NCBI RefSeq assembly: GCF_014132355.1
Contig: NZ_BLZO01000191.1
Location: 1-39,978, forward strand
Reading direction: 5' to 3'
DNA from: Okeania sp. KiyG1
Lineage (GTDB): Bacteria > Cyanobacteriota > Cyanobacteriia > Cyanobacteriales > Microcoleaceae
Length of the DNA: 39,978 nt
The notes below the pieces were generated by a model. The model was not told the origin of the DNA. It did not search any database and worked only from the letters and a program-made list of their open reading frames with translations. The stretch's first letter is position 1, and every line of letters begins with the position of its first letter. The translations under genes were made by a program, and so were the position numbers. Positions 5,278 through 37,195 of the stretch are shown here, one piece after another.

Positions 5278-5292
5278 TAATTATTAATAAAG

Positions 5293-5442: not shown

Positions 5443-5464
5443 AATACAGGTATATTAATAAATT

Positions 5465-9441: not shown

Positions 9442-10851
9442 CTAATTTTTCTGAATAGCATAACAAAGGCGAGCGAATTTTATTGGATTATTTTCCATCA
9501 AATCAGTTGTAATACTTTTTAAACCAAGTAAAAAGTGTTCCAAATTATGAGTTTTAGAACCATCATTTTCGCAAGCACGATCCTCACAGTTCCAGTTTTG
9601 CCACCAATCTTGTTCTCCCAAACCATTAGCTATTAGATCAACTTGGAAAAAGTAAATATTTGGTTGTGGTAATTCACTAGGTTTAATTGTAGTTTTAAAA
9701 CTTAACTCACGATTTTTTTCATCTGGTTTCCAATCACTAAATTGCATTGATTTGGATAGTTTTGTTGAAATTGTAGACTCTTTTGATGGGGAAATTAATT
9801 CTTTTGTTGACTCATCAAAAAATTTGCTCTCACTAATTTTAGCTTGTATAGAATTAGCTGATGGTGGCAATGTATACTGATTCAAAATCGGCAAACTAAC
9901 CTTGTAGTTAATTGCTATTTCTTCTTGGAAATTTCTATTTATTTCTAACAACTCAATTGGTTGACTTGTCGGGAGTTCGATCGCTACTTTTCCATTATTA
10001 AGAGAGAACGGTCGCCTCAGACCTGGTATTGCTTTGTCTGGGTTTGTCAATTCACCAATAACTGATAAATCATTTACTATATTACTGGGTGAAAATATCG
10101 TAAATTCACTGTTTTTCATCAATTCTCCTCCATCTCGCTTCAGTTTGTTAAAGTAGTAGAGAATGTGTTCGTATGGTCCTAAAAATACTACATAAAAAGG
10201 CCGAAACTCCTCTATTGCTTTCCCTTCAGTATTATAAAGAAAGTTAAAGTCTTCTCTATTGCTACCAACAACATAAACTGTTCCATTAAATTCACTTCTA
10301 ATTGCTAAAATAGCTGCTGCGTATCCTTCTTTATTAAGATAATGCTCTCTAATTTTTTGGTTCAGCGCAGTAACATCACCTTGATTTTGATATAAATCAG
10401 AGATCAGAACCAAAAGTTCTTTTCCTTCCCTTTGTGGTATAATAGTCCCTGCTAGATTACTTGTTACTCGATCTTCGCGGTAAAATATCTCTGTTTTTGC
10501 TTCTAGGAATTTTGAACGATCAATATTTTGTTTCTCAGGTCCTCCCACACGATAGTATTTAACTAAGTCAGGTGAGTTAGATATGAAAAACGTGCGCTCT
10601 AGCAATTCTATTGTTTTTACATAACGACTCCCACCGTTAGCTAAATATCCTGGCATAGATTCCGAACCATCTATATTAAGGCTAATATTAATTTGTTCTG
10701 GTGGTGTATCTAATGAGGGAGACTGACCTGCCGCCGAAGGTACATCACAAGATAGATCGTTGTAAGTTTTTGGTATACAAGCTGTTGTGACACCTATTAG
10801 CATAAATAGGAGAACGGGAATTTTCCATACTATTGTTTTTGTTGAATTCAT
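9442..10851 (-). CDS. VWA-like lipoprotein, last gene of the minus-strand cluster
   Basis: A 469-residue protein. An N-terminal hydrophobic stretch (about 8-24) ends in a lipobox, VTTAC, with C25 as the predicted lipidated residue, so the mature protein is anchored on the outer face of a membrane. From about 54 it has a von Willebrand A-like domain: NISLNIDGSESM gives the MIDAS motif DxSxS at D61, S63 and S65, and LLVLISDLYQ (about 147-156) matches the later Asp-bearing strand. The remaining ~270 residues are beta-rich and unassigned (two Cys near the C terminus in NCEDRACEND). VWA domains bind protein partners through a metal ion. It lies 308 bp downstream of the zinc-ribbon gene in the same orientation, so membership of the cluster is likely but not proven. 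Confidence 0.7.
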   Translation of the reverse strand: MNSTKTIVWKIPVLLFMLIGVTTACIPKTYNDLSCDVPSAAGQSPSLDTPPEQINISLNIDGSESMPGYLANGGSRYVKTIELLERTFFISNSPDLVKYYRVGGPEKQNIDRSKFLEAKTEIFYREDRVTSNLAGTIIPQREGKELLVLISDLYQNQGDVTALNQKIREHYLNKEGYAAAILAIRSEFNGTVYVVGSNREDFNFLYNTEGKAIEEFRPFYVVFLGPYEHILYYFNKLKRDGGELMKNSEFTIFSPSNIVNDLSVIGELTNPDKAIPGLRRPFSLNNGKVAIELPTSQPIELLEINRNFQEEIAINYKVSLPILNQYTLPPSANSIQAKISESKFFDESTKELISPSKESTISTKLSKSMQFSDWKPDEKNRELSFKTTIKPSELPQPNIYFFQVDLIANGLGEQDWWQNWNCEDRACENDGSKTHNLEHFLLGLKSITTDLMENNPIKFARLCYAIQKN

Positions 10852-11158
10852 AATAATTTGCTCTATTGATTTTATTAATTTTCAAAGAACATAATACCGT
10901 TTTATGGAAGTCAAAAGTCAAAAGTTAAAAGTTAAAAGTTAAAAGTCAAAAGTTAAAAGTTAAAAGTTAAAAGTTACAGCAGTTTCCACTGTTATGGGTA
11001 CACCGACCGCGGGCAAGATGCCCGCACTACAATATTTTCACTATTTACCTTGTACATTATTTGCCCGAAATATGTTGTAAATAATTTACCGTATCTATTA
11101 GGGTGAGCGGCCGTTCACCCCTACAGATGTTATCTGATTTAGTTTTGACTTTTGACTT
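10852..11158. repeat. AAAAGTT/AAAAGTC heptamer array and palindromes
   Basis: About nine heptamers at 10907-10975, then GCGGGCAAGATGCCCGC (about 11007-11023) and GGTGAGCGGCCGTTCACC (about 11101-11118). The block closes with TTTTGACTTTTGACTTTTAA, the reverse complement of the heptamers, so the whole 10.9-11.16 kb block is bounded by inverted repeats. Confidence 0.7.
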
Positions 11159-12484
11159 TTAACTTTCTTTTGTCTGATTTTCATTTTCAGAGTTGTTGTC
11201 ATCCTCTAACTTCCTAGATTCAAAATTCAATACGCCCAATGCTACAACCTTCCACTTACCTCCATCTCCTGTAGGTTCAACTTTCGCTGGTTTCAGCAAT
11301 TGAAACTGCTTCGACTCTCCCGACCAATCTCCATCACATTTAAACAAACCTTGCACATCTTCATTCTTATCTGGGTTAATATTAGTATTCGCTTGAGGTG
11401 CTAAATAGTCACCGCTTTCCTCAGATAAGATCCAATAACGTCCCCATCTAGCTTCTTTTTTCAAAACAACTGCATCACTGCTCTCATTGACTTTTGAAAC
11501 TGTCGTAGGTCTCTTCGATCGCCAACTACGACTGCTATTGTAAAGTTCTACCAAAATAGCTTCTTCAGGTGGTAGTGGTGGCAGAATCACTGGTGGTTCT
11601 GGTTTTGGTTCTGGCGTCAACTTCTGTTTTGGTTCTGGCGTCAACTTCTGTTTTGGTTCTGGTGTTAGGGTTGGAGTCTCTGGAGGTATCTCTTCGATCG
11701 CTGTTTCTAATAAGGAATCTGGGCTTGCATTATCAATTGCTGCTAACTCAGTTTCTTGCCAACTTAGATTGATATCTGTTAACGATGGGGGTGTTGATAT
11801 CTCATTTTGGGAGGAAGATTGTTCAATTTTCTCTAACCTTTCTATCAACGGACTAATCTGTTGAGAAATTCTCTCCAAGAGTTCGTCTTGACTACTCTGT
11901 TGAGACAATTTTTCCGAAAGCTCCTGCAATTTTGTTTCTATCGTTGATAACTGAGATTGAAGACGCGCCTGCTCTTGATTCCCCAACTCTAATTGCTCGT
12001 TCAAATTTGCCACTATTTCTGGCAACTCAAACTCTGGTTTTTCCGCAGGATCGATTTGTTGGGAGAATTTTGCCAAAACATTCTGCAAATTTGTTTCTAT
12101 CATTGATAACTGAGATTTCTGAACCACCTGTTCTTTATTTCCCGCTACCACTTGCTCGGCCAAATCATTTAACTTTTCTACTATTTCTAGCGATCGCTCT
12201 TGTTGAGATTGCTGGAATTCTGCTTGTAACTCTTCGTATTCTGCCCTCAATTGTTGTAATTGAGATTCCTGTTCCTTTGGTAACAGTGGTGTTTTCGATG
12301 ACGCTTGCCACATTCGTCTCGCCCAATTTTCTACTTGTTTAAGGGCATCCGACGAACTCAACCCTGAACCTTCAAGGACTCCATCAGCACTGCTGGAATA
12401 AAGCTTTAAATACCAGCCGCAGGTGAGACAAAAATTCACCTGTTGCTGTTGATATTCTGTATTGCAAATCGGACAATTTGGCAT
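11159..12484 (-). CDS. Zinc-ribbon, coiled-coil protein with the shared C-terminal domain
   Basis: A 441-residue cytoplasmic protein. Residues 4-23 (CPIC...CLTC) form a zinc ribbon. About 70-215 is a long coiled coil with an internal duplication (QSQLSTIETKLQ and KSQLSMIETNLQ). Next is a Pro/Glu linker with repeated TPEPKQKL, coded by repeated TTCTGTTTTGGTTCTGGCG units at about 11610-11665. The last ~115 residues are a divergent copy of the shared domain (RWGRYWILSEESGDYLAP, GLFKCDG, LLKPAKVEP, KWKVVALGVLNFES). There is no signal peptide. It starts 43 bp after the preceding gene, in an operon-like position. A scaffold or adaptor is plausible; no enzyme motif is seen. Confidence 0.75.
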   Translation of the reverse strand: MPNCPICNTEYQQQQVNFCLTCGWYLKLYSSSADGVLEGSGLSSSDALKQVENWARRMWQASSKTPLLPKEQESQLQQLRAEYEELQAEFQQSQQERSLEIVEKLNDLAEQVVAGNKEQVVQKSQLSMIETNLQNVLAKFSQQIDPAEKPEFELPEIVANLNEQLELGNQEQARLQSQLSTIETKLQELSEKLSQQSSQDELLERISQQISPLIERLEKIEQSSSQNEISTPPSLTDINLSWQETELAAIDNASPDSLLETAIEEIPPETPTLTPEPKQKLTPEPKQKLTPEPKPEPPVILPPLPPEEAILVELYNSSRSWRSKRPTTVSKVNESSDAVVLKKEARWGRYWILSEESGDYLAPQANTNINPDKNEDVQGLFKCDGDWSGESKQFQLLKPAKVEPTGDGGKWKVVALGVLNFESRKLEDDNNSENENQTKES

Positions 12485-12526
12485 TAGTTATCCTTCCATT
12501 TATAAAATTTACTTTAAGTTTACTAC

Positions 12527-14205
12527 CTATTCATAAAATTGCAGTACACCACGTTCTACAAGCTGCCAGGTTTCACCTATTGAAATAGCAGATACTCTCG
12601 CTGGTTTTATCAGTTTAAACCCAGAATATTCAGGTTGATATCCCTGACATTCAAATAAATTAGCAACTGTCTCCGACGTATATTCGTTAACCTTAAAGTA
12701 ATTTTTAGGAACCATGTAATCAATCCCACCCTCATTTAATATCCAATAGCTTCCCCTGCGATTTTTCTGAAGAATTGCTCCTTGACCGCCACCCAAACGA
12801 CGTTGGTTAATGCTTTGCTCTGTTTCAGAGACCTCTATAGCATTTCTTGATAACAAACGGGGGTTTTGCTGATACGTTGATATTAATTGAAGACCTGAAT
12901 ATTGAACAGTAAATATCAACTTTCCTGGCTCGGATAGTTGCCATTTTTCTTCTCCAACAGAAGAAACTTTGGCAGGTTTTAATAATTCAAATTTATCATT
13001 ATATTCTTCACTATTGATACCTTTACACTCAAACAATTTTTCCATCACCTCGATGCTATATTCATTAATTTTCATCGTATCACTAGGAACTAAATACTGT
13101 GAATTTCCTTGTTTTAATATCCAATAGTTACCCCTGCGCTTTGGTTTGAAAACTGGTTGACCAACACCCCAACGACTGTTATCAATACTCTCTTCTGTTG
13201 CTGAAACTGTTATCGTATTTTTTGAAAAAATAGCACGTTTTCCTGGGTCTTTATAGTCTTTCAACAACTGTTCTTCTTCACTTATAAAAATAAACTTTTT
13301 AGTATTGGCATTGTTGTCTGGAGTCTTTACTTGCTGATTTTGTTCAATTTGTTCAAATTGAGATATTTTCTTTCTCATGTTATTAATTTCACCATCTAAC
13401 TTTGTCAACCAGTTTTTGATGTTATTAATTTCACTTTTTCTAGTTTTAATAATTGAGACTCCAACTGGGCAAACTTCTGACCCAACTTGGTCTCCAAATT
13501 AGAAGATCGTCCCTCCTGGACCGCCCCTCCTTGTTCCAACCACTCCAAACGCGCCGTCAAATCACCCCGCCAGCGATCGCCCTCCTCCAACTTGGCCAAA
13601 GTTTCCTGCAAGCGTTCATAGGCCAATTCTGCCACTTGAGAAGCCAAGCGATCGCGCTCCCCCCTCGCCAACCTCAGTTCAGATTCCAGTTTCTGGCGCT
13701 CCTCCTTTACTTCTTCCAGTTCCGACTGTACCTGAGATAATCGAGAATTATCACCAAAATGCAACACCCCTCGTTCCTCCAAACGCCACTGGTCTCCCCC
13801 TGGCGTCAGAGAAACCTTTGCGAGTTTAACCAGCATAAACTCCCGTCCATCCTCTGACGGAGAACCATTAAACTCAAACAAAGATTTAACAGTATTTTTG
13901 TTAAAGGAATTAATTCGGAAATTAGCTTTAGGTAATAACCAGTAACCTCCCTTTTCCGTAACCATTACCCAATAATTACCATTTCGTTCTTCACCAAGCA
14001 AAACTCCTGAATTAGAATATCTCCCTCCCCCATCCTCAACTATTGAAACTTTAATCGCCTTTCTTGAGAGAACCTTCGGTGCATAATTGTAAGTTTCAAT
14101 CAACTCATCTTCAGACAAACTTATCCAACCCCGTTGCGGAGTTTCCAGCGCTCCTGTCATCTGCACCGAATCAGTTGATTTGAAGGAATAATTATTTGGT
14201 TCCAT
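12527..14205 (-). CDS. Three-copy shared-domain protein, probably one gene split by a one-base deletion
   Basis: Two open frames overlap by 4 bp (ATGA at 13405-13408). The upstream frame (13405-14205) has one shared domain at about 27-145 (NGNYWVMV, WLLPKANFRIN, SLFEFNG) and then a coiled coil. The downstream frame (12527-13408) has two more copies (RRGNYWILKQGNSQYLVP and RRGSYWILNEGGIDYMVP). Adding one T to the run 13435-13439 continues the coiled coil as LEKSEINNIKNWLTKLDGEI and gives a 559-residue protein. The downstream frame's own start (MTKLDG) is inside this helix. The alternative is two translationally coupled genes. There is no signal peptide. It is the only locus here with domain copies at both ends. 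Confidence 0.65.
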
Positions 14206-14287
14206 TGTTTTCTTCTGGTGATATATATTTTACTGGTAAAATCTTTTCGAGTTTCTTGAACCGATCTTCTAGAGATTCCATTATCTA

Positions 14288-15759
14288 TTAATAAAATTCC
14301 AGTACACCACGTTCCTCAAGCTGCCAAACTTCACCTCTGGATACAGAAGAAACTATCGCTGGTTTTATTAGTTTAAACCCAGAATATTCAGGTCGATATC
14401 CCTGACATTCAAATAAATTTGCAACTGTCTCCGAGTTATATTCATTAATTTTGATGTTATGTTTAGGAAGCATGTAATCAATCCCACCCTCATTTACTAT
14501 GCAATAGTTTCCCCTGCGAACTTTCTGAAGAACTACTGCTTGACCGCTACTTCCGTCTGCTGCCGAGACCTCTATAGCATTTTTTAATAAATAACTGGGG
14601 TTTTCCTCATATATTGACATCAATTTAAGAGTGGGCAAACCTGGATGTTGATTGGGAGATATTTGTTCATCCATTTCAGGTTCTGGTGTTACTTGACCAG
14701 GCGAATAATTGGTTGTTTTTGGAGCTTCTATGTAACCTTCAGTTAAATTGTCTGGAGTCTTTACTTGCTGATTTTGTTGGAGCTGGTTTATTTGATTTTG
14801 TAGCTTTTTCCATTTATTTTCCCACAAATTAGACATTTGTTCTAATTTATCATAAAAATTCTCTACTTTATCGTCTACTGCAAAAATGGGTTCTTGAATG
14901 TCGAAATTATCAGTTGAGTTAACAGTATTATTTCTTTCCTGAGTTAACTTCTTCCTCCTTCGAGATTGCGATTTATCAACCAATAACGTTATTAATATTG
15001 CTGCTAGTGCCAAGAATATTATGAAAATCAATGTCCATAATATTAGTAGTGAAATTTTAAACTGATTTAATTCATTTTGTAATACATTGTTTAAGTTCTT
15101 TATTTCTGCCTCATTCTTCTTAGCTAGAGCAACTAATTCCTTATTTGTTAGTTCCAAATCAGCTATAACTTGACCAAGAGAAATAATATTAGCTTTTAGC
15201 TGTTCGCTGTTTTTTGCTAATAAATTATTTATTTTTCTACAGTCGTTGGACCTAAAAGTCCAAAAGAACTTACTTCCCAATTGGAAAAAACTCCCAAATA
15301 TATCTGTACTTCACCAATTGCCTCTTTGCCTAATCCATCTTTTAATTTTTCAGTTATTTGTCTAATGTTTTGGATATTTTGATTTATATCATTAAAAATT
15401 TGCTCTAAATTTTCTTCATTTCTAGTTTTAAAAATTTGCTCTCTATACTCCCTAAGTTTTGTTTCTAGTTCTGTTAGTTTTTGATTAACTTCAAAACTAT
15501 TTACTAATTCCCTTTTTTTCAAACCATCTTTTGCTGCAACGACCTCCTTCATAAAACCATCTAATAATTTTTTAAATTCATCGTTTGTTTTTTGAACATC
15601 ATCAAAGCTTTCTTCTAAATTTTGACTATCTAGATTTGAAAAACTTTCTGTTGGTTCCTGGATTGCTAGAGAATTCCCTGTTTCAAGGCTACAACCAACT
15701 AGCAAACCAGGAATTAAAAGCAAAGATAGTAATAATTTTATGTCACTACTTTTCCACAT
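14288..15759 (-). pseudogene. Lipoprotein with one membrane helix and the shared domain, frameshifted
   Basis: A paralogue of the intact gene at 15939-17660. The N-terminal part (15229-15759) has a lipobox LLVGC and a helical periplasmic region (VAAKDGLKKRELVNSFEV). The second part (14288 to about 15240) has a membrane helix (about LLILWTLIFIIFLALAAILI) followed by QSRRRKK, then a coiled coil and one shared domain (RRGNYCIVNEGGIDYMLP). One more T in the run 15232-15236 reads VEKINNLLAKNSEQL and joins the frames into 490 residues, matching the paralogue. The last ~190 bp are nearly identical at DNA level to the end of the paralogue, which points to recent duplication or gene conversion. Confidence 0.75.
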
Positions 15760-15938
15760 AAAAACTCACTTTTTCATTCAATAGACATCCCCAAAACAAG
15801 TTATGATACCCTGATTGCACTGTTCCAAAAATACTAATTTTGGAAAGGTATAATAAATGAACTGATAAACTTTCATATCCTTTTCACTGCACAATTATCT
15901 AACTTAGAATTGACTTACCTAAGAAATTCAATTGCCCA

Positions 15939-17660
15939 TTAATAAAATTCCAGTACACCACGTTCCTCAAGCTGCCAAACTTCACCTCTGGATACAGAAG
16001 AAACTATCGCTGGTTTTATTAGTTTAAACCCAGAATATTCAGGTCGATATCCCTGACATTCAAATAAATTAGCAACTGTCTCCGAGCTATATTCATTAAT
16101 TTTGATGTTATTTTTAGGAACCATGTAATCAATCCCACCCTCATTTAATATCCAATAGTTTCCCTTACGATTTTTCTGAAGAATTACTCCTTGACCGCCA
16201 CCCAAACGACGTTGGTCAATGCTTTGGTCTGTTTCCGAGACCTCTATAGCATTTCTTGATAACAAACGGGGGTTTTGCTGATACGTTGATATTAATTGAA
16301 GACCTGAAGAACCAGAATGTGGATTTATTTGAGGTTCTTGTGTTACTGGACTAGGCGAATAATTGGTTGTTCTTGGAGTTTCAATGTAACTTCCAGCTAC
16401 ATTGTCTGGAGTCCTTAGTTGCTGATTTTGTTGTCTCTGATTTATTTGACTTTGTAGCTTTCTCAGTTCACTCTCCCACCATCTAGAAATTTCTTGTAAT
16501 TGCCTAGAAATTTCCTTTACTTTATCTTCTAATTCAAAAATAAACTTTCTATTATCGGCATTATTACCTGGAATCTTTACTTGCTGATTTTGTTGGAGAT
16601 CGATTATTTGATTTTGTAATTTTTTCCTTTCAGCGTCCCAGCTTTTAGACATTTTTTCTAATTTCTCATAAACGTCCTCTACTTTATCGTCTACTTCAAA
16701 AATAAGTTCTTGAGTGTCAGAACTACCAGTGGAGCTACCAGCATTATTTCCTTCCTGAGTTAACTTTTTCCTCCTTCGAGGTTGTGATTCCCCAAACAAT
16801 GGCTTTAATATTATTCCTGCTAGTACCAGAACTATTATGACAACTAATATCGTTAATATTAGTAGTGAAGTTTTCAACTGATTGAATTCAGTAGGAATAT
16901 ATTGTAATTTACTGTTTAAGTTCTTTAAGTTGTTGATTTCTGCCTGATGATTTTTAACTATAGCTAACAATTCTTCGTTTTTTCTTTCCAAATTAACTAT
17001 TCTTCTAGTCAATTCATTATCATTTTCATCAGGAATGACAGATGGAGGTGAGACAATTTGACCAAGAGAGATAATTTTATCTTTTAGCTGTTCGCTGTTT
17101 TGTGTCAGTAACCCATTTATTGCCTTTTGAGTATCTGGGCCTAAGTTTCCAATATAACTCACTTCCCGATTTGAAACAATTTTCAAATCTATCTGTAAGT
17201 CACTAATTGGCTCTTGTCCTAATCCATCTTTTAATTTTTCAGTTATTGGTTTAATGTTTTCGATATTTTGATTTATATCATTAAAAATTTGCTCTAAATT
17301 TCCTTCATTTCCAGTTTGAAAAATTTGCTCTCTATACTCCCTAACTTTTGTTTCTAGTTCTGTTAGTTTTTGATTAACTTCAAAACTATTTACGAATTCC
17401 CTTTCTTTCAAACCATCTTTTGCTGCAACGACATCGTTCATAAAATTATCTAATGACGTTTGAAATTCATTGTGAATTGTTTCAACATCGTAAAAGCTTT
17501 TCTCTAAATCTGCTTTTCCATTGGAAGGAGCTGGTATTTCCGAGGGAATAGGTTCTGGTTCTGATTCTGTTGGAGCACAAGCAACTAAAGAACCAGACAT
17601 TAACAACAAAGCCAGTAATAAACTGTAAATACTTTTCCAATTGTGTATCTTTTTCCACAT
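15939..17660 (-). CDS. Lipoprotein / single-pass membrane protein with cytoplasmic shared domain
   Basis: 573 residues. A signal sequence ends in LVACAP (lipobox Cys about 28). About 45-265 is a helix-rich region predicted to lie outside the cytoplasm. A strong membrane helix follows at about 268-290 (SLLILTILVVIIVLVLAGII), then QPRRRKKL, whose positive charge puts the remainder in the cytoplasm. That part has two similar coiled-coil blocks (KKLQNQIIDLQQNQQVK and RKLQSQINQRQQNQQLR) and one shared domain at about 450-573 (RKGNYWILNEGGIDYMVP, NLFECQGY, WQLEERGVLEFY). The protein would thus link a lipid-anchored outer part to a cytoplasmic module. It starts 27 bp after the upstream gene. It carries no known enzymatic motif. 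Confidence 0.75.
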   Translation of the reverse strand: MWKKIHNWKSIYSLLLALLLMSGSLVACAPTESEPEPIPSEIPAPSNGKADLEKSFYDVETIHNEFQTSLDNFMNDVVAAKDGLKEREFVNSFEVNQKLTELETKVREYREQIFQTGNEGNLEQIFNDINQNIENIKPITEKLKDGLGQEPISDLQIDLKIVSNREVSYIGNLGPDTQKAINGLLTQNSEQLKDKIISLGQIVSPPSVIPDENDNELTRRIVNLERKNEELLAIVKNHQAEINNLKNLNSKLQYIPTEFNQLKTSLLILTILVVIIVLVLAGIILKPLFGESQPRRRKKLTQEGNNAGSSTGSSDTQELIFEVDDKVEDVYEKLEKMSKSWDAERKKLQNQIIDLQQNQQVKIPGNNADNRKFIFELEDKVKEISRQLQEISRWWESELRKLQSQINQRQQNQQLRTPDNVAGSYIETPRTTNYSPSPVTQEPQINPHSGSSGLQLISTYQQNPRLLSRNAIEVSETDQSIDQRRLGGGQGVILQKNRKGNYWILNEGGIDYMVPKNNIKINEYSSETVANLFECQGYRPEYSGFKLIKPAIVSSVSRGEVWQLEERGVLEFY

Positions 17661-17686
17661 AATAACTAACCTCTTAATTCAATAGA

Positions 17687-18760
17687 TTAATCAATAAATT
17701 CCAATTTTCCTCGCTCAGACAATTGCCACTTTTCTTCTCCAATAGAAGAAACTTTAGCAGGTTTTAATAGTTCAAAGTTATCCTTATATCCTTCACTATT
17801 TGCACTTTGACACTCAAACAATTTTTCCAGAGTCTCGTTACTATATTCATTAAATTTTATCGTATCACTAGGAACTAAATACTGTGAAGTACCTTGTTTT
17901 AATATCCAATAGTTACCCCTGCGCTTTGGTTTGAGAACTGGTTGACCAACACCCAAACGACTGTTATCAATACTCTCTTCTGTTGCTGAAACTGTTATTG
18001 CATTTTTTGATAAAATATCACGTTTTTCTGGGTCTTTATAGTCTTTCAACAACTGTTCTTCTTCACTCAGAGGTAATTTACCTTCCTCCTCTGTTTCTAC
18101 GATAGTAGCTAGTTTTGTAGGTGTTTGCTGCTTTCCTGGCGGGATTACTGTTGTTGTCGATGGCAGATATTCTGGATAATTTTGTATCCATCCTCCCAAC
18201 AGACTAAACAACTCTTTGATTGGCTTCAACTCCTTTTCTAACTGTCGTTGCAACTCCTCTTTTAGTTCTAATATCTGGTTATTAATTTGGTTAATTTCTT
18301 CTCTTTCTGCTTCTAAAGAAACAGTATTGTCTTTCTGCTTCTGAGCTAGTGCTTGTAACTCATACTGGAGCGATGCTATCGTTTGGTTCTGTTGTTGCTG
18401 CGCCTGCTCTAATTGCTCCACTCGCACAACAATATCTTCTTGATATTGCAATTTAGTCAATTGTTGATTGGGTAAAGCATCCTGCACCAAATTCTCTCTA
18501 TCTACTTCTGCTGCTTGAGTTTGTTCCTCTGAGTTTTTTCCCGCTTGCTCGAAATCATAATTACTTGACGATTCGACATCAGTCACCGATAGTTCTTCTG
18601 ATTCTTGCTTCTCCTCATCTGTCTTATTTGCAGGAGCTTTATACCCCCCAAACTCTGATAACTTCTCCCCAAGCGAAGTATCTCGCAGCTTAAAACCACA
18701 ACTTGAACAAAAATTATCCTGCTCCTCTACTTTAGCACCGCACTTTGGACAGTCACTCAT
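17687..18760 (-). CDS. Zinc-ribbon, coiled-coil protein with shared domain
   Basis: 357 residues. Residues 4-21 (CPKCGAK...CSSCG) are a double CxxC zinc ribbon like that of the gene at 11159-12484. An acidic linker follows, then a coiled coil at about 100-185, and one shared domain at about 235-357 (RRGNYWILKQGTSQYLVP, KLFECQS, LLKPAKVSS, WQLSERGKLEF). Its domain is nearest at DNA level to the middle copy of the 12527-14205 locus. It is soluble and predicted cytoplasmic. Only 27 bp separate it from the lipoprotein gene downstream, so the two are very probably co-transcribed. Confidence 0.75.
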   Translation of the reverse strand: MSDCPKCGAKVEEQDNFCSSCGFKLRDTSLGEKLSEFGGYKAPANKTDEEKQESEELSVTDVESSSNYDFEQAGKNSEEQTQAAEVDRENLVQDALPNQQLTKLQYQEDIVVRVEQLEQAQQQQNQTIASLQYELQALAQKQKDNTVSLEAEREEINQINNQILELKEELQRQLEKELKPIKELFSLLGGWIQNYPEYLPSTTTVIPPGKQQTPTKLATIVETEEEGKLPLSEEEQLLKDYKDPEKRDILSKNAITVSATEESIDNSRLGVGQPVLKPKRRGNYWILKQGTSQYLVPSDTIKFNEYSNETLEKLFECQSANSEGYKDNFELLKPAKVSSIGEEKWQLSERGKLEFID

Positions 18761-18959
18761 ATTTCCTACTAAGCTCCTTAAAAAATGGTATGTTGCGACG
18801 AATTGTTAAATCACTTTTACACCCAGTGATTAAAGCTGTCTAAGGCATCCTACAACAACGCAAATTATACGATCACACATTCAAACATCATCTAGTAGTA
18901 TCCCTAGCAGCCGAATTTCTAGCTGTAAGTCTAGAGACTTGCAGCCAGAATTAGACCAC

Positions 18960-21900
18960 CTACTTACCTGCCCACTCCTTAGCTAAAACCTTCAACAGAG
19001 CTTTCAACCCCATAATAAACGGCGGTTCCACACGAATGTCATCACTTTCCCCTTTCATATTCAACAAAACGTTCGTCAACTCCCTCTCCGTATTCCGCCA
19101 GAGACCCTGGTTATAACCTGATTCTGGTTCTGCTCCTGGTTCATCTCCCAGCTCGTAATCCTGTAGAGGGAGAATTTCCTCAATCTTCAACTCCTTCAAA
19201 GATAAATGGAAATCATCTAGAAACGTTCTTAACTGTATTAAATTGGGAATTTTTAGCTGCTGAATATTCCCCTTAAACTCCAAGCGGTCTCTCCATTCGA
19301 TTAACTCTCCATTAATTTCACAATCTTCTCCTGCAATCAACGGATCTTCAGTTTTCGTATCCAATCCTGTCAACCTAGTACGACCCAAGACTAAACCGCA
19401 AGCTACCTCATCTTTTGGTCTCTGACTCAATCGCGTTTTTTCCAACATCCGATCGTCAAATCCAGAGCCTTTAGTCAACATCTGACTCAGCAGATCGTTA
19501 ACTTCCGAAGAGGGAATAAATTTACCCCTTTCAGCCAACCAATTTAACAGTCGAGAACCATTTCCACCAATATAAACAGGAGTAATTTCGCGACTCTGGT
19601 ATCTTCCTTCTTGTTCTAGAACTCCCAAGATTGTCCCCACATAGTAGTACAATCCCCCCATGCCAATTGCCATCAGTTGGAGCAAACCTTGGAACTTCGG
19701 ATCGTCTTCTGCGAAATCTCTTTTATTTTTCAGCCAATTTTCGCTTTCCAGACGCAGAAATACATCCAATTTGGCACTGAACTTATCTTCAGTTAATCGG
19801 TCCCACTCTTTCATATTCTGCTCGAATAGCTGGGCGAAAAAATTTGGATTTAATTCCAAGAAATCCGATAACAAATGACGACCAGCTAATAAAACCGAAC
19901 ATTGATGAATGAGCTTGTTTTCGTACCAGACCGAAATATCTGAAGTACCACCTCCCATATCAATACAGGTAGTTCGGATTAAATCATGTTTTTCCTGGTC
20001 TGCAAAATATTGAGCGATCGCCAAACTCTCACTTTTGAATAACCCTACACCATTTGGATCAGGGCAAATATGTCTAATTCCAGTTTGAGCTTGAAGTTCC
20101 TCACTCAAATCTTGCCAGGTCTTAGCATACCGATTTTTGTCGCGACGAGAAAAAGCAGTAGGATAGGAAATACACCACTGAATCTGTTGGACTCCTTGTT
20201 TAGCTGCGATCGCGCTAATATGCAAAGCTAAGTGTTTCAAAAACAACTTGTTGGGAATGTAATTTTTCCACTTTAGGTCTGTTTCTATCCATCCCCGGAG
20301 CGGTTCAAACCTGTTGCGATCAGGAACATAAATCCTGCCATCAATAATTGGAAAATCTGGGTTTTGCGTCTTGTCTGGTTTCCCCCTAGTTGTCAGCACA
20401 CTAGACAAGGGTAAAGGTTTATCAGCAGGGATAAAGCTCTCCGGAACAAAGTATTCAAACAACACAGGTCTGCGCGTTTCTGTCAAAACCTCTGTCACCT
20501 TCAAATGCAAATCCTCCAACTTCAATTGCTCCGATAAATCGTTGCTATTGACATAGATATTAGTGAAAGAAGTCCCGAAATCTACCCCCACTTTCCATCG
20601 ATCTCCCAACCTAACTGTCTCTGGACTTTTCAGCAGGATCAAACCGATGGAGCTTCTCGAACCATCCTGGCACTCAATAAAACTGGGAAATTCTTCTAGG
20701 TAAGTTATTTGATAAGCACCCCTGCCATCTACAAAAGGATGATGTTCTTTCGCTTCCGGTAGATAAACCTGGAAAGTATCCTCTCCATGTTCAGCATCAT
20801 AATAAAAAGCATAATAAGAGCGCCATCCCTCCGCCCGGAAATTAGGCCACACTTCCAATACCGGCACTTCAGGCAAAGCGTTTTCCTCTTTGATCGGATA
20901 ATCTTGAGAAACCTGATAGTTCTTAGGTCGCCGAGGGTCATCTGTCATCCCCGACAGAGGCAAATCTAGGGTTACTCGCACTTGAGGTCCATCGTTGCTA
21001 TTTATTTGAGCAAGCTTAACCTTGGCGATTAAATCTTCCGGGGTAAAATAGTCTAGGAGTATGGGATCGAGTGGTATCAGGGGCGTAATGGTTTGACCCT
21101 GAAAAGTTAACTTCGTCCCTGACGGTAGGAAAGCTCCTGGTAAAGCCTCATCTTGGTCTACAAACCGAAATTCTTTCAGAAATAAGTCTTTGGATTCTCT
21201 CCACTCAACATCTGGCCAGGTAATTCTGCCGTTACGCAAATCTTGTACTTGTAGCGAAGCCAGAGTTTGCTCTTGGTGTATCCAAATATCTTGGGGTGGC
21301 TTTCCCCAAGCTTGAGAAATGTCTTGGTCAATTATCAGCAGAGGTTTTACCTGTCCCTTACTTTGACTGGGAACTAAGCGAACCCAAGAAGACTGAGCCT
21401 CAGCTTTCACCGGACGATTAATACCTTCCAACACCCCTCGGTTAATGGCAACACCAAAAAACTGAGGATTGTTGCTCAAGCTCAGGCGCTGATCCGGGCG
21501 AGACCCCAAACTATTTCGGAACTCTTCTAGCAATCCGCTAATAGAATCAATTGCTTCTGTTTCACCCCTGTAGTTGTGTAAAATTCCCTGCAGATTTTCT
21601 AGCCAGCGCCACAAGAGTGCCTTCTCGCTAACATTGAGGTGTCGCTGAGGAGACTCCAACTGACCAGTTTGTCTGTTCCACCAAGGCAGGCCATCCCATT
21701 TTCCTTCTTCAGAGGGGGCGACAATGGTACTCGGAGTACTAAGACCCACAGGTTTTTCGTTCCACAAAAATATATAAACGTCTTGCCAGGGGTTTTTGCC
21801 ATCTAGGGTATACAGGGCATTAACTGGATCGGGTGCCAGTTCGTATAGAGAACGGGCGAAAGAGTTTTGGTCTTTCTCTAGCTCCAAGTCCAAAAATTGA

Positions 21901-22226
21901 GCAGTTATTGGAAACCGCCGTACTTCGGCCAGAGCAACCGCTGCCAACATCCCTTGCCACTGTTGGACCATTTCTACCCGGATGGGATAATAGGGATTAT
22001 GTAAAGCCATCTCCATAGATAGGGGACGAGCCCACATGGTCGGTACGGAACTAACACTTTTCACCCCTCCTGGAGCTTTATAATCCAAACTAGAAGCCAC
22101 ATCTTGAAAGGCTTTTTTTGGTTGAGCATCCCATTTACCAGGAGTATCGCTAGCTCTAACATCGCTATCCCGCTTTAACTTGGGCAGGACTAAAACATAA
22201 CTCTTGTTGACTTGTGTTCCTGTCAT
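18960..22226 (-). CDS. Large protein with actin/Hsp70-type ATPase domain
   Basis: 1088 residues, soluble. The C-terminal half has the three hallmarks of the actin/Hsp70 ATPase fold: phosphate-1 VGVDFGTSFTN (D549), phosphate-2 CIDMGGGTSD (D756) and the adenosine loop YIGGNGSR (about G887). The N-terminal ~540 residues are not recognised; they look beta-rich and include conserved-looking Trp and Pro motifs (PTMWARPLSMEMALHNP). The family would bind and hydrolyse ATP and might polymerise or act as a chaperone-like switch; SrfB-like virulence-associated proteins have a comparable plan, but I cannot assign it to them. The heptamer TCAGTTA repeats run right up to the start codon, leaving no Shine-Dalgarno. 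The gene is more GC-rich than the flanking repeat proteins. It is followed 200 bp later by the zinc-ribbon gene. Confidence 0.75.
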   Translation of the reverse strand: MTGTQVNKSYVLVLPKLKRDSDVRASDTPGKWDAQPKKAFQDVASSLDYKAPGGVKSVSSVPTMWARPLSMEMALHNPYYPIRVEMVQQWQGMLAAVALAEVRRFPITAQFLDLELEKDQNSFARSLYELAPDPVNALYTLDGKNPWQDVYIFLWNEKPVGLSTPSTIVAPSEEGKWDGLPWWNRQTGQLESPQRHLNVSEKALLWRWLENLQGILHNYRGETEAIDSISGLLEEFRNSLGSRPDQRLSLSNNPQFFGVAINRGVLEGINRPVKAEAQSSWVRLVPSQSKGQVKPLLIIDQDISQAWGKPPQDIWIHQEQTLASLQVQDLRNGRITWPDVEWRESKDLFLKEFRFVDQDEALPGAFLPSGTKLTFQGQTITPLIPLDPILLDYFTPEDLIAKVKLAQINSNDGPQVRVTLDLPLSGMTDDPRRPKNYQVSQDYPIKEENALPEVPVLEVWPNFRAEGWRSYYAFYYDAEHGEDTFQVYLPEAKEHHPFVDGRGAYQITYLEEFPSFIECQDGSRSSIGLILLKSPETVRLGDRWKVGVDFGTSFTNIYVNSNDLSEQLKLEDLHLKVTEVLTETRRPVLFEYFVPESFIPADKPLPLSSVLTTRGKPDKTQNPDFPIIDGRIYVPDRNRFEPLRGWIETDLKWKNYIPNKLFLKHLALHISAIAAKQGVQQIQWCISYPTAFSRRDKNRYAKTWQDLSEELQAQTGIRHICPDPNGVGLFKSESLAIAQYFADQEKHDLIRTTCIDMGGGTSDISVWYENKLIHQCSVLLAGRHLLSDFLELNPNFFAQLFEQNMKEWDRLTEDKFSAKLDVFLRLESENWLKNKRDFAEDDPKFQGLLQLMAIGMGGLYYYVGTILGVLEQEGRYQSREITPVYIGGNGSRLLNWLAERGKFIPSSEVNDLLSQMLTKGSGFDDRMLEKTRLSQRPKDEVACGLVLGRTRLTGLDTKTEDPLIAGEDCEINGELIEWRDRLEFKGNIQQLKIPNLIQLRTFLDDFHLSLKELKIEEILPLQDYELGDEPGAEPESGYNQGLWRNTERELTNVLLNMKGESDDIRVEPPFIMGLKALLKVLAKEWAGK

Positions 22227-22345
22227 TTCAGTTATCAGTTATCAGTTATCAGTTATCACTACCTCTGGTTTCAGCCAGAAGCTTTTCAGTTATCAGTTAT
22301 CAGTTATCAGTACCTCTGGTTTCAGCCAGAAGCTTTTCAGTTATC
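22227..22345. repeat. TCAGTTA heptamers with a duplicated hairpin
   Basis: TCAGTTA runs alternate with CTCTGGTTTCAGCCAGAAGC, giving a ~60-bp unit repeated about two and a half times immediately upstream of the ATPase gene. It would occupy its 5' untranslated region. Confidence 0.85.
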
Positions 22346-22465
22346 AGTTATTACTACCTCTAGATAAAAGTTTTAGCCTTTTTAGGTTGAAAAAAGTGCG
22401 CCTGTTTCAGCTCTTATATCTGCAAAAAGTTACAGCATATTTCAGGCCAATAATGTAGTGCGGGC

Positions 22466-22566
22466 ATCTTGCCCGCGATGGGTTACCTGGATCTTGCCCG
22501 CGATGGGTTTACCTGAATCTTGCCCGCGATGGGTTTACCTGGATCTTGCCCGCGATGGGTTTACCT
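22466..22566. repeat. Four tandem 26-bp units (ATCTTGCCCGCGATGGGTTT...)
   Basis: Four direct copies of a 25-26-bp unit starting ATCTTGCCCGCGATGGG and ending ACCTGG/ACCTGA. The array grows out of a GTAGTGCGGGCATCTTGCCC palindrome that also occurs, inverted, near 11005-11027. The remaining sequence 22567-22687 has no gene. Confidence 0.85.
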
Positions 22567-22687
22567 CATAACAACGGGAAGCGCTGTAGCATAAAAGACA
22601 GACAAGGGGAAAAAATTACTCCCCCATTCCCCTACTCCCCAAAAAGACTTTTTCAACCAACCCTAATTATCAATTATCAATTATCCA

Positions 22688-24158
22688 TTAAATCCTAGAG
22701 GCCATATATACCGACTTAGCCAGTCCTACGGTCCCACCGGGTGAAGTTGCCTTAAGTGTATTCTTGAGTTTTTGCACCGTATCTCGGGATTTTTTGCCTC
22801 GATCGCGACTATCCCCAATTATCAAATCTGGCAGTTCATCTCCTAGAAGTTTTTTGTTGGGAGGAAAAGCATCGGCTTTAAACAAAGCAATATTATCGCC
22901 TTCGCACTGGTGCAGAGAATACAGCCAACGCAAATAATCTTGACACCAATTATTGATTATTCCAATAGCTTCTTGTTGGTCAGCATCGGAAAAGTCCGGC
23001 TTAGTCCCCCCAGATCTGCTGCCAGTTTGGTAGAATTCCATCAGCCAAGGGGCCAACCTTTGAAAACGGGTATTTTTCATTTTTTTCGCTTCCTCTAGTT
23101 CGGGAGCAATTTCGGCCAGCCATGTAAAAGCAAATCTGGTAGCATTCATTAGCTCTGGTTGGACTTCTGCCTTATCTGGGATATCTTCCCAGGAAACAGT
23201 CCCGTTCTTCTGACGAGTCATCAATACTACAGACCCTTTAGCTGTGGATGAATCTCGCCAAAAGTTACGAGCTGCCAGAGCGGCGTATAGTTCTAGGAAG
23301 TGGGGGTTGTTGCGCTGGCTATCTTTGCCTATACTAAAGTTGACTTTGGAGAAGTTCTGATTGCCCAGAAGATAAACTCTGTCAAAGATTTCTTGACCTT
23401 GAGTAACGTAATAACGGAGAGCTGCTTCTGTGTTTAGCAAAAACTGTTCGGAGCGAGCATAAACTCCATCGGGGTCTTCTCCCGGCGGTGTGGAGAAGCC
23501 AAAATAGGGTAGTACAAACAGGCAACCTGTTTGAACGCTCTCACGGACCTTAATTTTCTTCAACTTATTATCAATCAGGCGGGCAATAGTTGGTAACCCT
23601 GAAGCCCCAGTCCCTCCAAAAATAGACCCACACAGAAAAATTTTTGGTTTTTCACCGCTACCTGTTTCTCCCTGAATTTGCTTGATTAGGCTTCCCCAGG
23701 GGTCTTGATCCAATTTGTCTAAATCTACCTGACTCATCACCGCTGAACCGATGGCTGGTCGTCCCCGAAATCCTACATCTAAGTTGGCTTCCCGTTCTTC
23801 CTTAGTGTAAAGGACATCGAACAAATTGGCCAAAATTGGTTTATTTTGCTTGATGGTGTTATAGTTAAAAAATGCTTTCAGTTCTTTCTCTCTAGCTAAA
23901 GGCGACCATAGATTGAAGGATTCGATATTGCTTTTCATCCACCCACACTCTGTTTTGTCCCCAGTAGCCATTACATTATAAGTTTTTATAGATACTGATG
24001 CTAGTCCTAGCACGAGCCAGATTTCCATTAGTTTCATCTGCATCTACAAATAAGACCTTAATCGGTTCTTCATTAAATAAGCCTACCGCTGCTATTTTGG
24101 ATACTGCTTCAACACATTTAGCCCCGGTTCCACCAATTCCAATGAGATAAAGTCCCAT
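22688..24158 (-). CDS. Tubulin/FtsZ-like GTPase (Tubulin_2 type), one-base frameshift
   Basis: The N terminus MGLYLIGIGGTGAKCVEAV matches the first glycine loop of tubulin-like proteins, VLFVDADETNG follows as the next strand, and FLCGSIFGGTGASGLPTI is the tubulin signature (GGTGxG) that contacts GTP phosphates. The rest is helical and ends SVYMASRI. Two frames (23976-24158 and 22688-24043) overlap. Removing one T from the run 23983-23987 reads ISIYKTYNVMATGDKTE and gives 489 residues. The start ATG 24158 is two bases after the stop of the upstream membrane-protein gene, so the two are translationally coupled. FtsZ-like families of this sort, proposed to act in membrane remodelling, are known; the specific role here is not. 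It could polymerise, or act as a GTP-controlled scaffold. Confidence 0.75.
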
Positions 24159-24160
24159 AA

Positions 24161-24628
24161 TTATTCGCCAAAAAAACTACGCAATTTAATTGAACCTGGG
24201 GGAACAAACTTTAAACCCCAGGGTACTGGTTGCAGTTGGCAACCAAAATAGTAATAATATGTCAAACATAAAAAGATAGTCAAAGGCCCAAGTGCATCAT
24301 CACTACCTTTAAAAAAGCCTATGGCCAAAAAAAGACTCAATAGGGGAAATAGCAAAAATAGCCACCAAACTAGCTCCCACTTGGCCACTTCTTCAGCTTT
24401 ATGAGCTTTTGCGTTAGCGGTTATTAAGTACCAAATTACAGTTGACAGTACGGATACTGCAAAAACTACAGTTCCCCCAAGGATGTAATGATTGTTTATC
24501 CAAGCCTCCACATCCATATTTAATATTCTTAGGATTTTCAGTCTATATAGTAAAGGTTGTCCTAGGAACATTATAATGGCTCCTATCAGGCTAAAAATAA
24601 TTATCCTAATAATCTCATTTGTTTTCAT
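24161..24628 (-). CDS. Four-helix membrane protein, first gene of the cluster
   Basis: 155 residues with about four hydrophobic segments (about 8-26, 48-70, 84-104, 112-132). There is no family motif that I recognise. The stop overlaps the tubulin-like gene's leader, with only TT between TAA and ATG, which ties the two functionally. It is a plausible membrane anchor for the tubulin-like protein (inference). Upstream (24629-24760) no strong promoter was identified. Confidence 0.6.
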   Translation of the reverse strand: MKTNEIIRIIIFSLIGAIIMFLGQPLLYRLKILRILNMDVEAWINNHYILGGTVVFAVSVLSTVIWYLITANAKAHKAEEVAKWELVWWLFLLFPLLSLFLAIGFFKGSDDALGPLTIFLCLTYYYYFGCQLQPVPWGLKFVPPGSIKLRSFFGE

Positions 24629-26065: not shown

Positions 26066-27748
26066 TTATTTGAAGACACCGGAAACTGATAACACTTCAG
26101 ATTCAGGCATCTTGGGGAATAATGGTCCTTTTGCAAAGAGTTGAGGATTAGCTTTAGCAAAAGTGTATGATTGACGAACCTGACTATTTACTGCCACTGT
26201 CTTCGCATCATACATCCGAGTTGCCATTTTAGGATATAGACCAATACCAATAATCAAAACCAAGAAACAAGCAGCGATCGCAACTTCTCGTGGTCTGGCA
26301 TCAGTATAGACAGCATTCGCAGGTAACACACAGTTAGTACCGTAGCAAACTGCTTCATCTAAAATTTCATTTTCATAAGGAGTATCTTTGAGGATACAAG
26401 TAGGTGCTTTACCAGTGCTGTAGAACATTTGACGCAACATGGAAAGCAGATAAATAGGTGTCAAAATCAAACCAACTGCTGCGAGGAAAACTGTTACAGT
26501 CCGGAAAGTCGAACTATAAACATCGCTGCTAGTCACTCCGACGAATACCATAAGTTCGCTAGCAAACCCACTCATTCCAGGAAGTGCTAAAGATGCCATA
26601 GCACTAATAGTAAATAGAGCAAATACTTTTGGCATTACTTGACCTAGACCACCCATTTCTTCCAACTTCAGAGTGTGGAGGCGATCGTAAGTTATACCCG
26701 CGAGGAAGAATAATACCGCAGCAATTAAACCGTGGGAAATCATCTGTAGTAAAGCACCACTTACACCTAAGTCAGTGAAGGAAGCAATACCTAACAAAAC
26801 AAAGCCCATGTGAGCTACAGATGAATAAGCCAAACGGCGCTTCATATTAGACTGTCCGAAAGAATTCAACCCGCCGTAAACAATATTCACGACACCCAGA
26901 ATTGCCAGAATAGGAGCAAAGTAAACATGAGCGTCAGAGAGCATTTCTAAGTTGAGGCGAATTAATCCATATCCACCCATTTTGAGCAATACACCTGCCA
27001 GAACCATTGATACAGGTGAAGAAGCTTCGCCGTGAGCATCAGGTAGCCATGTATGTAGAGGGAAAATGGCCAATTTTACTCCAAAAGCGATTAATAATCC
27101 TGCGTAAAGTAGAAGCTCTAAGGTCAGTGGATAATCTTTCAGACCTAGTTCCACCATATCGAAGGTAATATTGCCGCCACCGTATAAAGCCATTCCCAAG
27201 GCTGCCACTAGAATAAATATGGAAGCTGCTGCTGTGTAGAGCAAGAATTTTGTTGCAGCGTAGCGACGCTTTTGGCCACCCCAGATGGAAATGAGCAGGT
27301 AGACAGGAACTAGCTCTAGTTCCCACATAATAAACAGTAGCATCATGTCTTGGGCTACGAATACTCCTATCTGGGCGGAGTATAGCACCAGCATTAGAAA
27401 GTAAAAAAGACGTGGTTTGTAGTCTACTTGCCACGCCGAGAATATTGAGAGTGTTGTTACCAGGCCAGCTAAAAGTACCAGTGGCATAGATAAACCGTCT
27501 ACTGATACTGCCCAACTTAGACCTATCTGAGGGAGCCAGGCATATTTTTCTACGAGTTGAAAAGTTGAGTCGCTGGCATTGTAGTTATTCCAGAAGGCGT
27601 AGCACATTAGTGCAAAATCAGTAATTCCTACACCAAGGGCGTACCATCTCATGGTCTTTCCGTTTTTATCGGGGATGACGGGGATGAGTAGGGCAGCCAG
27701 AAGTGGCAGTAGGACTATGGTGGTCAGCCAGGGAAATTGAGTTGCCAT
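26066..27748 (-). CDS. ndhD1: NAD(P)H-quinone oxidoreductase subunit 4 (NdhD1)
   Basis: A 560-residue antiporter-like, proton-pumping subunit of cyanobacterial NDH-1 in the thylakoid membrane, used in respiration and cyclic electron flow. It has about 14 hydrophobic helices. Family landmarks include [20 protein letters not shown] (key Glu), [29 protein letters not shown] (Lys and His of the proton path), [11 protein letters not shown] and [11 protein letters not shown]. The length and the C-terminal extension after the last helix fit the NdhD1 type, which pairs with NdhF1, rather than the CO2-uptake NdhD3/D4. No ndhF is next to it here. The gene is intact and ends at a clear terminator. No strong Shine-Dalgarno precedes ATG 27748. 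Confidence 0.9.
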
Positions 27749-28224
<476 letters not shown>

Positions 28225-28926
28225 ATGTCAGGATTTTCTACTAAAAAAATATTATCGATCGCATTATTTGTGAATTTTGTGGCGATCGCTGCTGTTATCT
28301 TCCGAGCAATACTACTGGATAAAGGACCATATCGATATTTTGATGAGGGGTCTTTGATTAATTGGTTATCGGGTATTCAGTTATTAATTATTGCTGGAAT
28401 TAACTGGAAAATTTATCGTTTAAGAATTGGCAGAAAAGAGGTATCTCAGCCGGGAAAGAATTATCAAAGACTTTGGCAGTTTTTGACTTTTGGTTTTGTG
28501 TTCTGCGCTGTGGATGAACTAATTCAAATCCATGAAAGGTTAGATAAATTTATTCATTGGATATTTCAAATTCAGGAAACTGCTTTGACTGATAGTATTG
28601 ACGATTTAATTATTGTGATTTACGGGATTATTGGTTTGTTGGTAATTTATTATTTTCGTCAGGAGTTTTATCAGTATCGAGAGGCTTTTAGTTATTTTAA
28701 AATTGCTTTGATTTTAGCTTGTTTTTCCATTGCACTTGATTTTTTCACCCAAGGTCAAGAAACATCAAACTTGTTAACTGAAACTCAAGAAATGCAAAGG
28801 GAATGGCTCAGGAGTATTGAGGAAATATTTAAAGTTTTTGCTGAAGTATTTTTGATTGCTACTTTTTATAAATGTTTGAGAATTGCTCAAAGAATAAAAT
28901 TTATAGCGCTACGCGCTAGGGAATAG
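28225..28926 (+). CDS. Six-helix membrane protein of unknown function
   Basis: A 233-residue protein from ATG 28225 (the TTG just before is less likely). About six membrane helices (9-29, 44-62, 85-101, 128-150, 162-178, 205-225). Acidic and His residues sit in or next to helices (FCAVDELIQIHERLDK, SIDDLIIVIYG, SIALDFFTQ, EEIFKVFAEVF). This pattern resembles metal-dependent membrane hydrolases, but I cannot place it in a family. The last codons run into a repeat (GCGCTACGCGC) and AATAGGG heptamers, so the C terminus may have been altered by repeat insertion. No clear ribosome binding site. Confidence 0.6.
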   Translation: MSGFSTKKILSIALFVNFVAIAAVIFRAILLDKGPYRYFDEGSLINWLSGIQLLIIAGINWKIYRLRIGRKEVSQPGKNYQRLWQFLTFGFVFCAVDELIQIHERLDKFIHWIFQIQETALTDSIDDLIIVIYGIIGLLVIYYFRQEFYQYREAFSYFKIALILACFSIALDFFTQGQETSNLLTETQEMQREWLRSIEEIFKVFAEVFLIATFYKCLRIAQRIKFIALRARE

Positions 28927-29019
28927 GGAATAGGGAATAGCAAACTGTAAAAGGGTTTTAGCATTGAAAAATGTCCGCGCCCAATTCTTGTAGTGCTATA
29001 AAACTTAATAGTAGATAAA

Positions 29020-37190: not shown

Positions 37191-37195
37191 AACTG

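Follow-up and report, generated by a model that had tools for sequence, protein, structure and literature searches.

Tubulin and actin homologues of bacteria have, to our knowledge, mostly been studied singly. Here we describe a gene cluster that combines both folds, found in a 39,978-nucleotide stretch of the cyanobacterium Okeania sp. KiyG1 (hereafter the window; NZ_BLZO01000191.1, contig C191; genome size, 11 Mb). An earlier note on this DNA had described genes read in one direction, and the run from 24628 to 9442 is indeed on the minus strand, save for one small overlapping plus-strand open reading frame (ORF) of 136 amino acids; all other ORFs of at least 100 amino acids in 9442–24628 follow this orientation. 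From upstream to downstream, the cluster encodes a small multi-transmembrane (multi-TM) protein (MP), a short Tubulin_2-type protein (TUB), an actin/Hsp70-type ATPase (HSP), six ORFs with a shared domain of ~120 residues (D) together with a lipoprotein ORF that makes up the front part of one of these six, and a VWA-like lipoprotein (VWA). VWA, MP, TUB (~490–510 amino acids) and HSP (~1,090 amino acids) constitute the module core, and the D proteins come after. The individual features are as follows (L numbers denote loci, G numbers genomes and C numbers contigs).

24161..24628, minus strand: MP, small multi-TM membrane protein (hydropathy, alignment, position directly upstream of TUB)
23985..24158, minus strand: 5′ piece of TUB with T1-like loop MGLYLIGIGGTGAK... 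(tblastn with the L004, L005 and L006 proteins, residues 1–58; DNA comparison)
22688..24043, minus strand: main piece of TUB with T4 loop GSIFGGTGASG and C-terminal half (Tubulin_2 match; homology from near 23998)
18960..22226, minus strand: HSP, predicted actin/Hsp70-type ATPase of 1088 amino acids (motifs and profiles)
17687..18760, minus strand: D protein of type A with zinc ribbon (Zn_ribbon_3, 30.0 bits, cut-off 27), coiled-coil-like region and C-terminal D (17693–18061)
15939..17660, minus strand: D protein of type B with lipobox, TM segment 267–285 followed by RRRKK, and C-terminal D (15942–16304)
15229..15759, minus strand: 5′ (lipoprotein) part of a second, frameshifted type-B gene
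14288..15280, minus strand: 3′ part of the second type-B gene with TM segment 79–97 and D (14291–14632)
13405..14205, minus strand: D protein with N-terminal D (13753–14112) and coiled-coil-like tail
12527..13408, minus strand: D protein with two D domains (12908–13276 and 12533–12895)
11159..12484, minus strand: D protein of type A with CxxC..CxxC N-terminus, coiled-coil-like region and C-terminal D (11219–11563)
9442..10851, minus strand: VWA-like lipoprotein with lipobox TTAC, the motif DGSESM of metal ion-dependent adhesion site (MIDAS) type, and ISDL at the place of the TDG of VWA domains

The earlier note had counted five proteins with the shared domain; D in fact occurs seven times in six ORFs of the window. 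The motifs that it listed are all present: GGTGASG, DFGTSFTN, DMGGGTSD, CxxC..CxxC (in two proteins) and lipoboxes. Pfam and NCBIfam scans of ten cluster ORFs (a set without MP) returned few matches: the zinc ribbon given above, Tubulin_2 below its cut-off in the main TUB piece, FtsA in HSP (E 0.0017) and weak coiled-coil-type matches. In MP, three TM segments are called in the window copy and usually three to four among relatives. Neither Rfam nor tRNA scanning found anything in the window.

That the cluster is an inherited unit and not a chance neighbourhood is nearly certain, because its parts co-occur almost perfectly in 386 cyanobacterial genomes and keep their order in 32 loci. HSP was found in 28 of these genomes, TUB and VWA in 25 each, and D in 32. 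All 25 genomes that encode the divergent tubulin also encode its dedicated actin/Hsp70-type partner, 24 of them encode a VWA-like lipoprotein, and D occurs anywhere in the genome in 23 (hypergeometric P of 2e-36, 7e-36 and 1e-27, respectively, with genomes treated as independent). The earlier note had held that NTPases regularly occurring without the VWA and shared-domain genes would refute its proposal; the counts came out in the proposal's favour. On one contig, as read from the tables, TUB is joined by HSP in 24/25 genomes and by VWA in 21/24.

The exceptions are few. The sole TUB genome lacking VWA is 87% complete (G071), and the TUB genomes lacking D are G077 and again G071. HSP without TUB occurs in a genome with a caspase fusion (G016), in one that is 73% complete (G074) and in one with a match at E 9e-4 (G399). 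VWA without TUB is confined to G119, where a 26-bit match with eight internal stops adjoins a D remnant. Nine genomes carry D without TUB, two with strong matches (G091 and G237, E 1e-18 and 9e-25) and seven at 6e-5 to 8e-4. Solitary HSP genes without the other genes stand on contig C87 of the window's genome and in L007, L031 and G016.

Gene order tells the same story. MP lies directly upstream of TUB on the same strand in 31/32 TUB loci, the contig of the remaining one (L005) starting inside MP, and in 31/32 HSP is found downstream of TUB in the same orientation (31 gaps of −19 to 4,170 bases). Because loci were fetched via HSP or TUB matches, the adjacency of these two is partly selected; MP and VWA played no part in the retrieval. 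A D gene comes after HSP in 24/31 loci, and VWA is present in 28/32 (18 divergent, 10 co-directional); of the four loci without it, two are contig ends. The 32 loci are unthinned: by our judgement they contain four pairs of near-duplicates and, apart from the window, three copies from Trichodesmium. A contig scan with the window HSP, using an exact-peptide method that reaches close relatives only, returned four Trichodesmium loci. The core genes also diverged in parallel: in a Mantel test on 18 of the 32 loci, after dropping the near-duplicates L108, L111, L117 and L120 as well as loci in which TUB, HSP and VWA are not all full-length, pairwise divergences correlated at r 0.96 for TUB–HSP, 0.86 for TUB–VWA and 0.83 for HSP–VWA, and 0/5000 permutations were as high. 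Some of this correlation may stem from common species history.

Wide spacers and broken genes in the window copy would also suit a set of unrelated one-strand neighbours without a common function. This reading, however, is contradicted by the near-complete co-occurrence, the fixed order and the recurrence of that order outside the cyanobacterial set, and hardly deserves credence. As to the spacers, the one between TUB and HSP (22227–22687, 462 bases) has translations with short repeats (QLSVISYQ-like and ARDGFT-like) and is shorter than 70 bases in many relatives.

TUB belongs to a divergent branch of the tubulin-like proteins. Its main piece in the window scores 25.3 bits against Tubulin_2 (PF13809), below the cut-off of 27, and the intact homologue in L004 scores 34.7, above it. 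At E≤0.1, PF13809 matches 9/9 TUB proteins of one alignment set, in keeping with an FtsZ-like N-terminal GTP-binding domain; six short TUBs (G030, G077, G108, G112, G125 and G162) have no match at E 0.001. Open frames in unbroken loci span 484–534 amino acids. A profile search of Protein Data Bank (PDB) sequences with TUB gave no match.

HSP combines a swappable N-terminal part (~1–272) with a core (273–1088), in which the phosphate-1 motif DFGTSFTN (549), the connect-1-like SYPTAFS (687) and the phosphate-2 motif DMGGGTSD (756) follow each other in the order of the actin/Hsp70 superfamily, succeeded by GGNG (887), which we take to be the adenosine motif. Profile comparison with DnaK and MreB gave E 4e-5 (shuffled DnaK, 0.22); phosphate-2 carries the significant part of the alignment, the remainder is forced, and the adenosine motif does not line up with MreB. 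Searching PDB sequences returned, at E 0.0095–0.24, FtsA and MreB together with a single chain of the actin family and a biotin ligase. Motifs and profiles together point to a fold of actin/Hsp70 type. SrfB, an Hsp70-like protein whose N-terminal part is long, was rejected as the identity of HSP, since Pfam scans of HSP contain no SrfB match.

The actin-type motifs are intact in the operonic HSP copies that hold this stretch and in both caspase fusions described below, and damaged in 6/6 other second or solitary copies examined. In the solitary second HSP of the window's genome (C87; L008:14802–17228), the N-terminal ~272 residues are missing and phosphate-2 is degenerate. In this copy and those of Trichodesmium metagenome-assembled genomes (L008, L031 and L007), IYMGRETSD, IYMRRETSD or LYMRRETSD replace IDMGGGTSD, and the three are perhaps one old inactive paralogue.

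On the envelope side, the earlier note had spoken of a VWA lipoprotein. The lipobox is there, and a MIDAS-type D-x-S/T-x-S motif is present in 26/26 cyanobacterial VWA homologues of at least 400 amino acids, but no Pfam VWA model matches the protein (six members scanned). An hhalign comparison with VWA_2 proteins of the same genome gave E 8e-4 (shuffled, 0.37), mostly over the MIDAS stretch, and a profile search of PDB sequences gave no match. The label 'VWA' is accordingly a putative one, drawn from the MIDAS-type motif and a weak profile similarity. D retrieved a single PDB chain at E 1 and is carried on zinc-ribbon, lipoprotein-TM or WD40 scaffolds. Among D proteins with an internal TM segment, lysine and arginine are richer on the D side in 21/28. 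Judged by sequence, the type-B protein, with lipobox, TM segment and D, is a candidate envelope-spanning connector.

The module is present in some cyanobacteria and in at least one Bacteroidota strain. A Prevotella record contains a distant TUB match (E 2e-15 at 24.8% identity), which lies in a locus (L163) with the order VWA-like lipoprotein, small membrane protein, TUB, HSP, coiled-coil-like protein and CxxC-TM protein. Profile–profile comparison of the Prevotella proteins gave E 7e-27 for TUB, 1.5e-20 over 726 columns for HSP and 3.6e-6 over 181 columns for VWA; MP and D were not significant in this comparison, and VWA and MP had no HMMER match, so that VWA is recognised by hhalign only. 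The IMG/VR contig L164 repeats the order VWA–MP–TUB–HSP, followed by a signal/TM protein, with E of 1e-42 (TUB), 8e-33 (HSP) and 3e-13 (VWA) when profiles include the Prevotella proteins. Neither locus has a D match, and in both the MIDAS-type motif begins with Glu instead of Asp. Against PF13809, Prevotella TUB scores 22.4 bits and L164 TUB has no match at 0.01. The ORFs past the module in L164 are mostly on the opposite strand and, judged by eye, are perhaps phage genes. A phage origin of the module was rejected, as one query found 0 TUB matches in 50,697 phage records; searches of the viral contig collection gave no contig with TUB and one with HSP.

Tubulin and actin folds both serve plasmid partitioning, as exemplified by TubZ and ParM, and five cyanobacterial plasmid records, with Picosynechococcus and Gloeothece among the hosts, hold HSP, TUB and VWA, one module plasmid carrying a MOBP relaxase. 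A system segregating plasmids or other DNA is nevertheless very improbable: the Pfam scan of the ten cluster ORFs contains no DNA-binding family (no centromere search was made), the partners are lipoproteins and membrane proteins, the plasmid of Gloeothece PCC 7822 already has ParA and ParB, and several module copies sit on contigs of 3.7–6.4 Mb. On the Picosynechococcus plasmid L100 (NZ_CP016489.1), F0F1 ATP synthase and phosphonate transporter genes lie near the module.

The VWA-like lipoprotein and the lipobox/signal-TM-D connectors could also be read as parts of a surface machine that spans the envelope and serves adhesion, motility or cell–cell contact, in which VWA would be an adhesin-like ligand binder and the two NTPases would give polarity. 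Neighbouring genes lend this little colour. Among 72 neighbours from 21 loci (L108, L111, L117, L119 and L120 left out), Pfam matched 101 families; the 25 listed show neither a recurring family for secretion, pili or adhesins nor any GTPase, Ser/Thr kinase or OmpA. Moreover, the module resides on plasmids of Picosynechococcus and Gloeothece, both of which are unicellular, and together these points make a surface machine unlikely. The same neighbours include a Uma2-type nuclease in 9/72 (Pfam; no baseline). A defence-island test by PADLOC gave scattered matches among the 25 of 87 models listed (PDC-S03 in four neighbours, mad3 and mad8 in three each, PDC-S17 and AriA in two each, PbeC and DndD in one, and pVip models on a radical-SAM protein) and, with no baseline, is not counted as support.

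Some of the module's own proteins are fused to other domains. In two cases a caspase (Peptidase_C14) takes the place of the HSP N-terminus (L024:9378–12677 and L168:5784–9647), in two others D does (L023 and L112), and in three D is fused to WD40 propellers (L023, L105 and L173). The caspase–HSP gene of L168 adjoins VWA and a D lipoprotein, with no TUB. In G007, a D-WD40 protein (L173:327–2303) and a TIR-AAA_35 protein (4759–6432) are encoded a few genes apart. Solo proteins of 528–542 amino acids with a C-terminal D (L165, L166 and L167) have no core gene matched within the 8 kb fetched, and their flanking ORFs are of similar sizes across the three genomes.

The module is, furthermore, sparsely distributed and damaged in several genomes. 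Of 40 relatives, nine have HSP, the window's genome among them, and none of the five other genomes of the genus does. The earlier note had listed both tubulin loops; they exist, but GIGGTGAK (24158–23985) and GGTGASG (ORF 22688–24043) lie in different frames, separated by a frameshift in an A-rich run at which the 5′ piece ends. In L004, L005 and L006 both loops are in one frame, encoding one protein of 490–491 amino acids. Likewise, ORFs 15229–15759 and 14288–15280, in different frames, are two parts of a single protein in relatives, and MP of the window, compared with relatives, has an off-frame stretch near its C-terminus. With TUB and one D-lipoprotein gene frameshifted, the window copy is probably decaying. 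Decay is a likelier source of these frameshifts than sequence error, if not proven, because three DnaK frames and one MreB frame are intact in the same genome and the window's SelO protein adenylyltransferase gene (5465–6864, minus strand) is also split, into two ORFs (profile 239–465 and 1–199). Elsewhere, HSP of G011 contains a TAG, G077 has a broken HSP and a short MP, and TUB of L029 is split. Damaged in the window and in other genomes, the locus looks dispensable.

These observations bear on a membrane-remodelling or vesicle machine of the kind proposed for the tubulin relative FtsZl1 (Makarova and Koonin 2010; PMC2875224), in which tubulin- and actin-like polymers, tethered by MP and the lipoproteins, would deform the inner membrane. 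The Tubulin_2 membership of the relatives, the VWA-like partner and the membrane proteins fit the FtsZl1 context described there. Yet the elements on which FtsZ-type polymerisation depends cannot be recognised, links to caspase, WD40 and TIR would be unexpected, and the locus is patchy (28/386 genomes and 0/5 of the same genus) and damaged in several genomes. Remodelling is our second choice and, on balance, doubtful.

The earlier note's proposal of one envelope-to-cytoplasm machine holds for the unit as such, given the co-occurrence, the order, the D–HSP fusions, the parallel divergence and the lipobox/signal-TM-D proteins, but the functions it listed are not decided between. We favour regulated stress or conflict signalling because of the caspase, WD40 and nearby TIR links, and give a rough probability of 0.45 to the module being a nucleotide-gated, envelope-anchored assembly switch with such an output. 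In this mechanism, the VWA lipoprotein would face the periplasm and bind a ligand there, either a peptide or a protein. Its state would be relayed across the inner membrane by MP and by the type-B D protein, whose lipobox would lie outside and whose D would lie inside, with the TM segment in between. In the cytoplasm, TUB and HSP subunits would assemble or remodel in an NTP-dependent manner, with D as the docking module. The assembly might then recruit or release outputs, either separate or fused modules, which could amount to regulated stress, death or anti-invader signalling, as the caspase–HSP fusions, the D-WD40 proteins and the D gene near a TIR-AAA gene would have it. More tentatively, the module may represent a new trans-envelope machine of more than one phylum, with tubulin-fold and actin-fold NTPases as obligate partners, a lipoprotein-TM-D connector, a periplasmic VWA receptor, and inactive actin-like paralogues as well as caspase and WD40 output modules. 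Strains of Picosynechococcus and Gloeothece that are in culture carry plasmid copies of the module, among them Picosynechococcus PCC 7003, 73109 and 8807.

Outside the cluster, the window encodes proton antiporter-like, NADH dehydrogenase 51K-type, 2Fe-2S/4Fe-4S and NiFe hydrogenase genes at 26066–39690, a region that we take to resemble the Hox hydrogenase region.

Searches of an open-licence library that lacks most subscription papers listed no paper on a VWA–MP–TUB–HSP module. The closest known systems share some of its parts. With FtsA, MreB and DnaK, HSP has in common the ordered phosphate-1, connect-1-like and phosphate-2 motifs and weak FtsA and MreB matches. It differs in the ~540 residues ahead of the ATPase part, ~270 of them swappable, has no HSP70 family match in Pfam scans and stays below the curated FtsA cut-off. 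TubZ and ParM share the tubulin or actin fold and, at times, the plasmid location, whereas the module has envelope partners and lies on multi-megabase contigs in several genomes.

Among these systems is that of FtsZl1, whose members include proteins from cyanobacteria and Bacteroides and whose gene neighbourhoods feature vWA, kinase, GTPase and OmpA (Makarova and Koonin 2010). The majority of FtsZl1 proteins are long, with an extended coiled coil and a helical C-terminal domain. Tubulin_2-type GTP-binding loops, a vWA partner (here in 28/32 loci) and membrane-associated partners are shared. Nevertheless, identity of TUB with canonical FtsZl1 was rejected on length and score: canonical cyanobacterial Tubulin_2 matches score mostly 200–380 bits, as opposed to ~19–35 for TUB, and those above 200 bits are mostly 1,048–1,170 amino acids long (exceptions, 230–917). 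The two types coexist in at least four cyanobacterial genomes. Profile–profile comparison of TUB with canonical members gave E 5.7e-6, with a significant alignment only around the T4 region. As to the kinase neighbours of FtsZl1, a motif scan found no kinase-like protein among the 72 neighbours and 203 core and D ORFs of the module. Conversely, the module has a dedicated actin/Hsp70-type partner and D proteins. In a term search of the accessible text of PMC2875224, Hsp70, FtsA, srfB and lipoprotein are not mentioned; its supplements give further associated families, which may include HSP or MP. One of the paper's reviewers asked how a cytoplasmic FtsZl1 could work together with periplasmic vWA partners. 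The lipobox-TM-D proteins offer a concrete and testable candidate for such a link, and the trans-envelope machine outlined above would, if true, answer this question.

Finally, tubulin, vWA and HSP70 are also themes of the GTPase-centric DO-GTPase/GAP1-N2 conflict systems, which Kaur et al. (2020; PMC7159879) describe as nearly absent from cyanobacteria. Membership of the module in these systems was rejected, as its core lacks a GTPase signature: Walker A with [NT]KxD occurs in none of the 203 core and D ORFs and in one of the 72 neighbours, no window ORF of at least 80 amino acids has a Walker A motif, and no GTPase family is found in the 20 window proteins scanned. FNIII has no match in the ten window cluster ORFs, nor does GAP1 in the Pfam scans, the presence of a GAP1 model in the library being unchecked. 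Nonetheless, the combination of tubulin, vWA and HSP70-type proteins, the zinc ribbons, the TM proteins and the variable attached domains are shared with these systems, and the module may be a counterpart of the tubulin–HSP70–vWA conflict systems.

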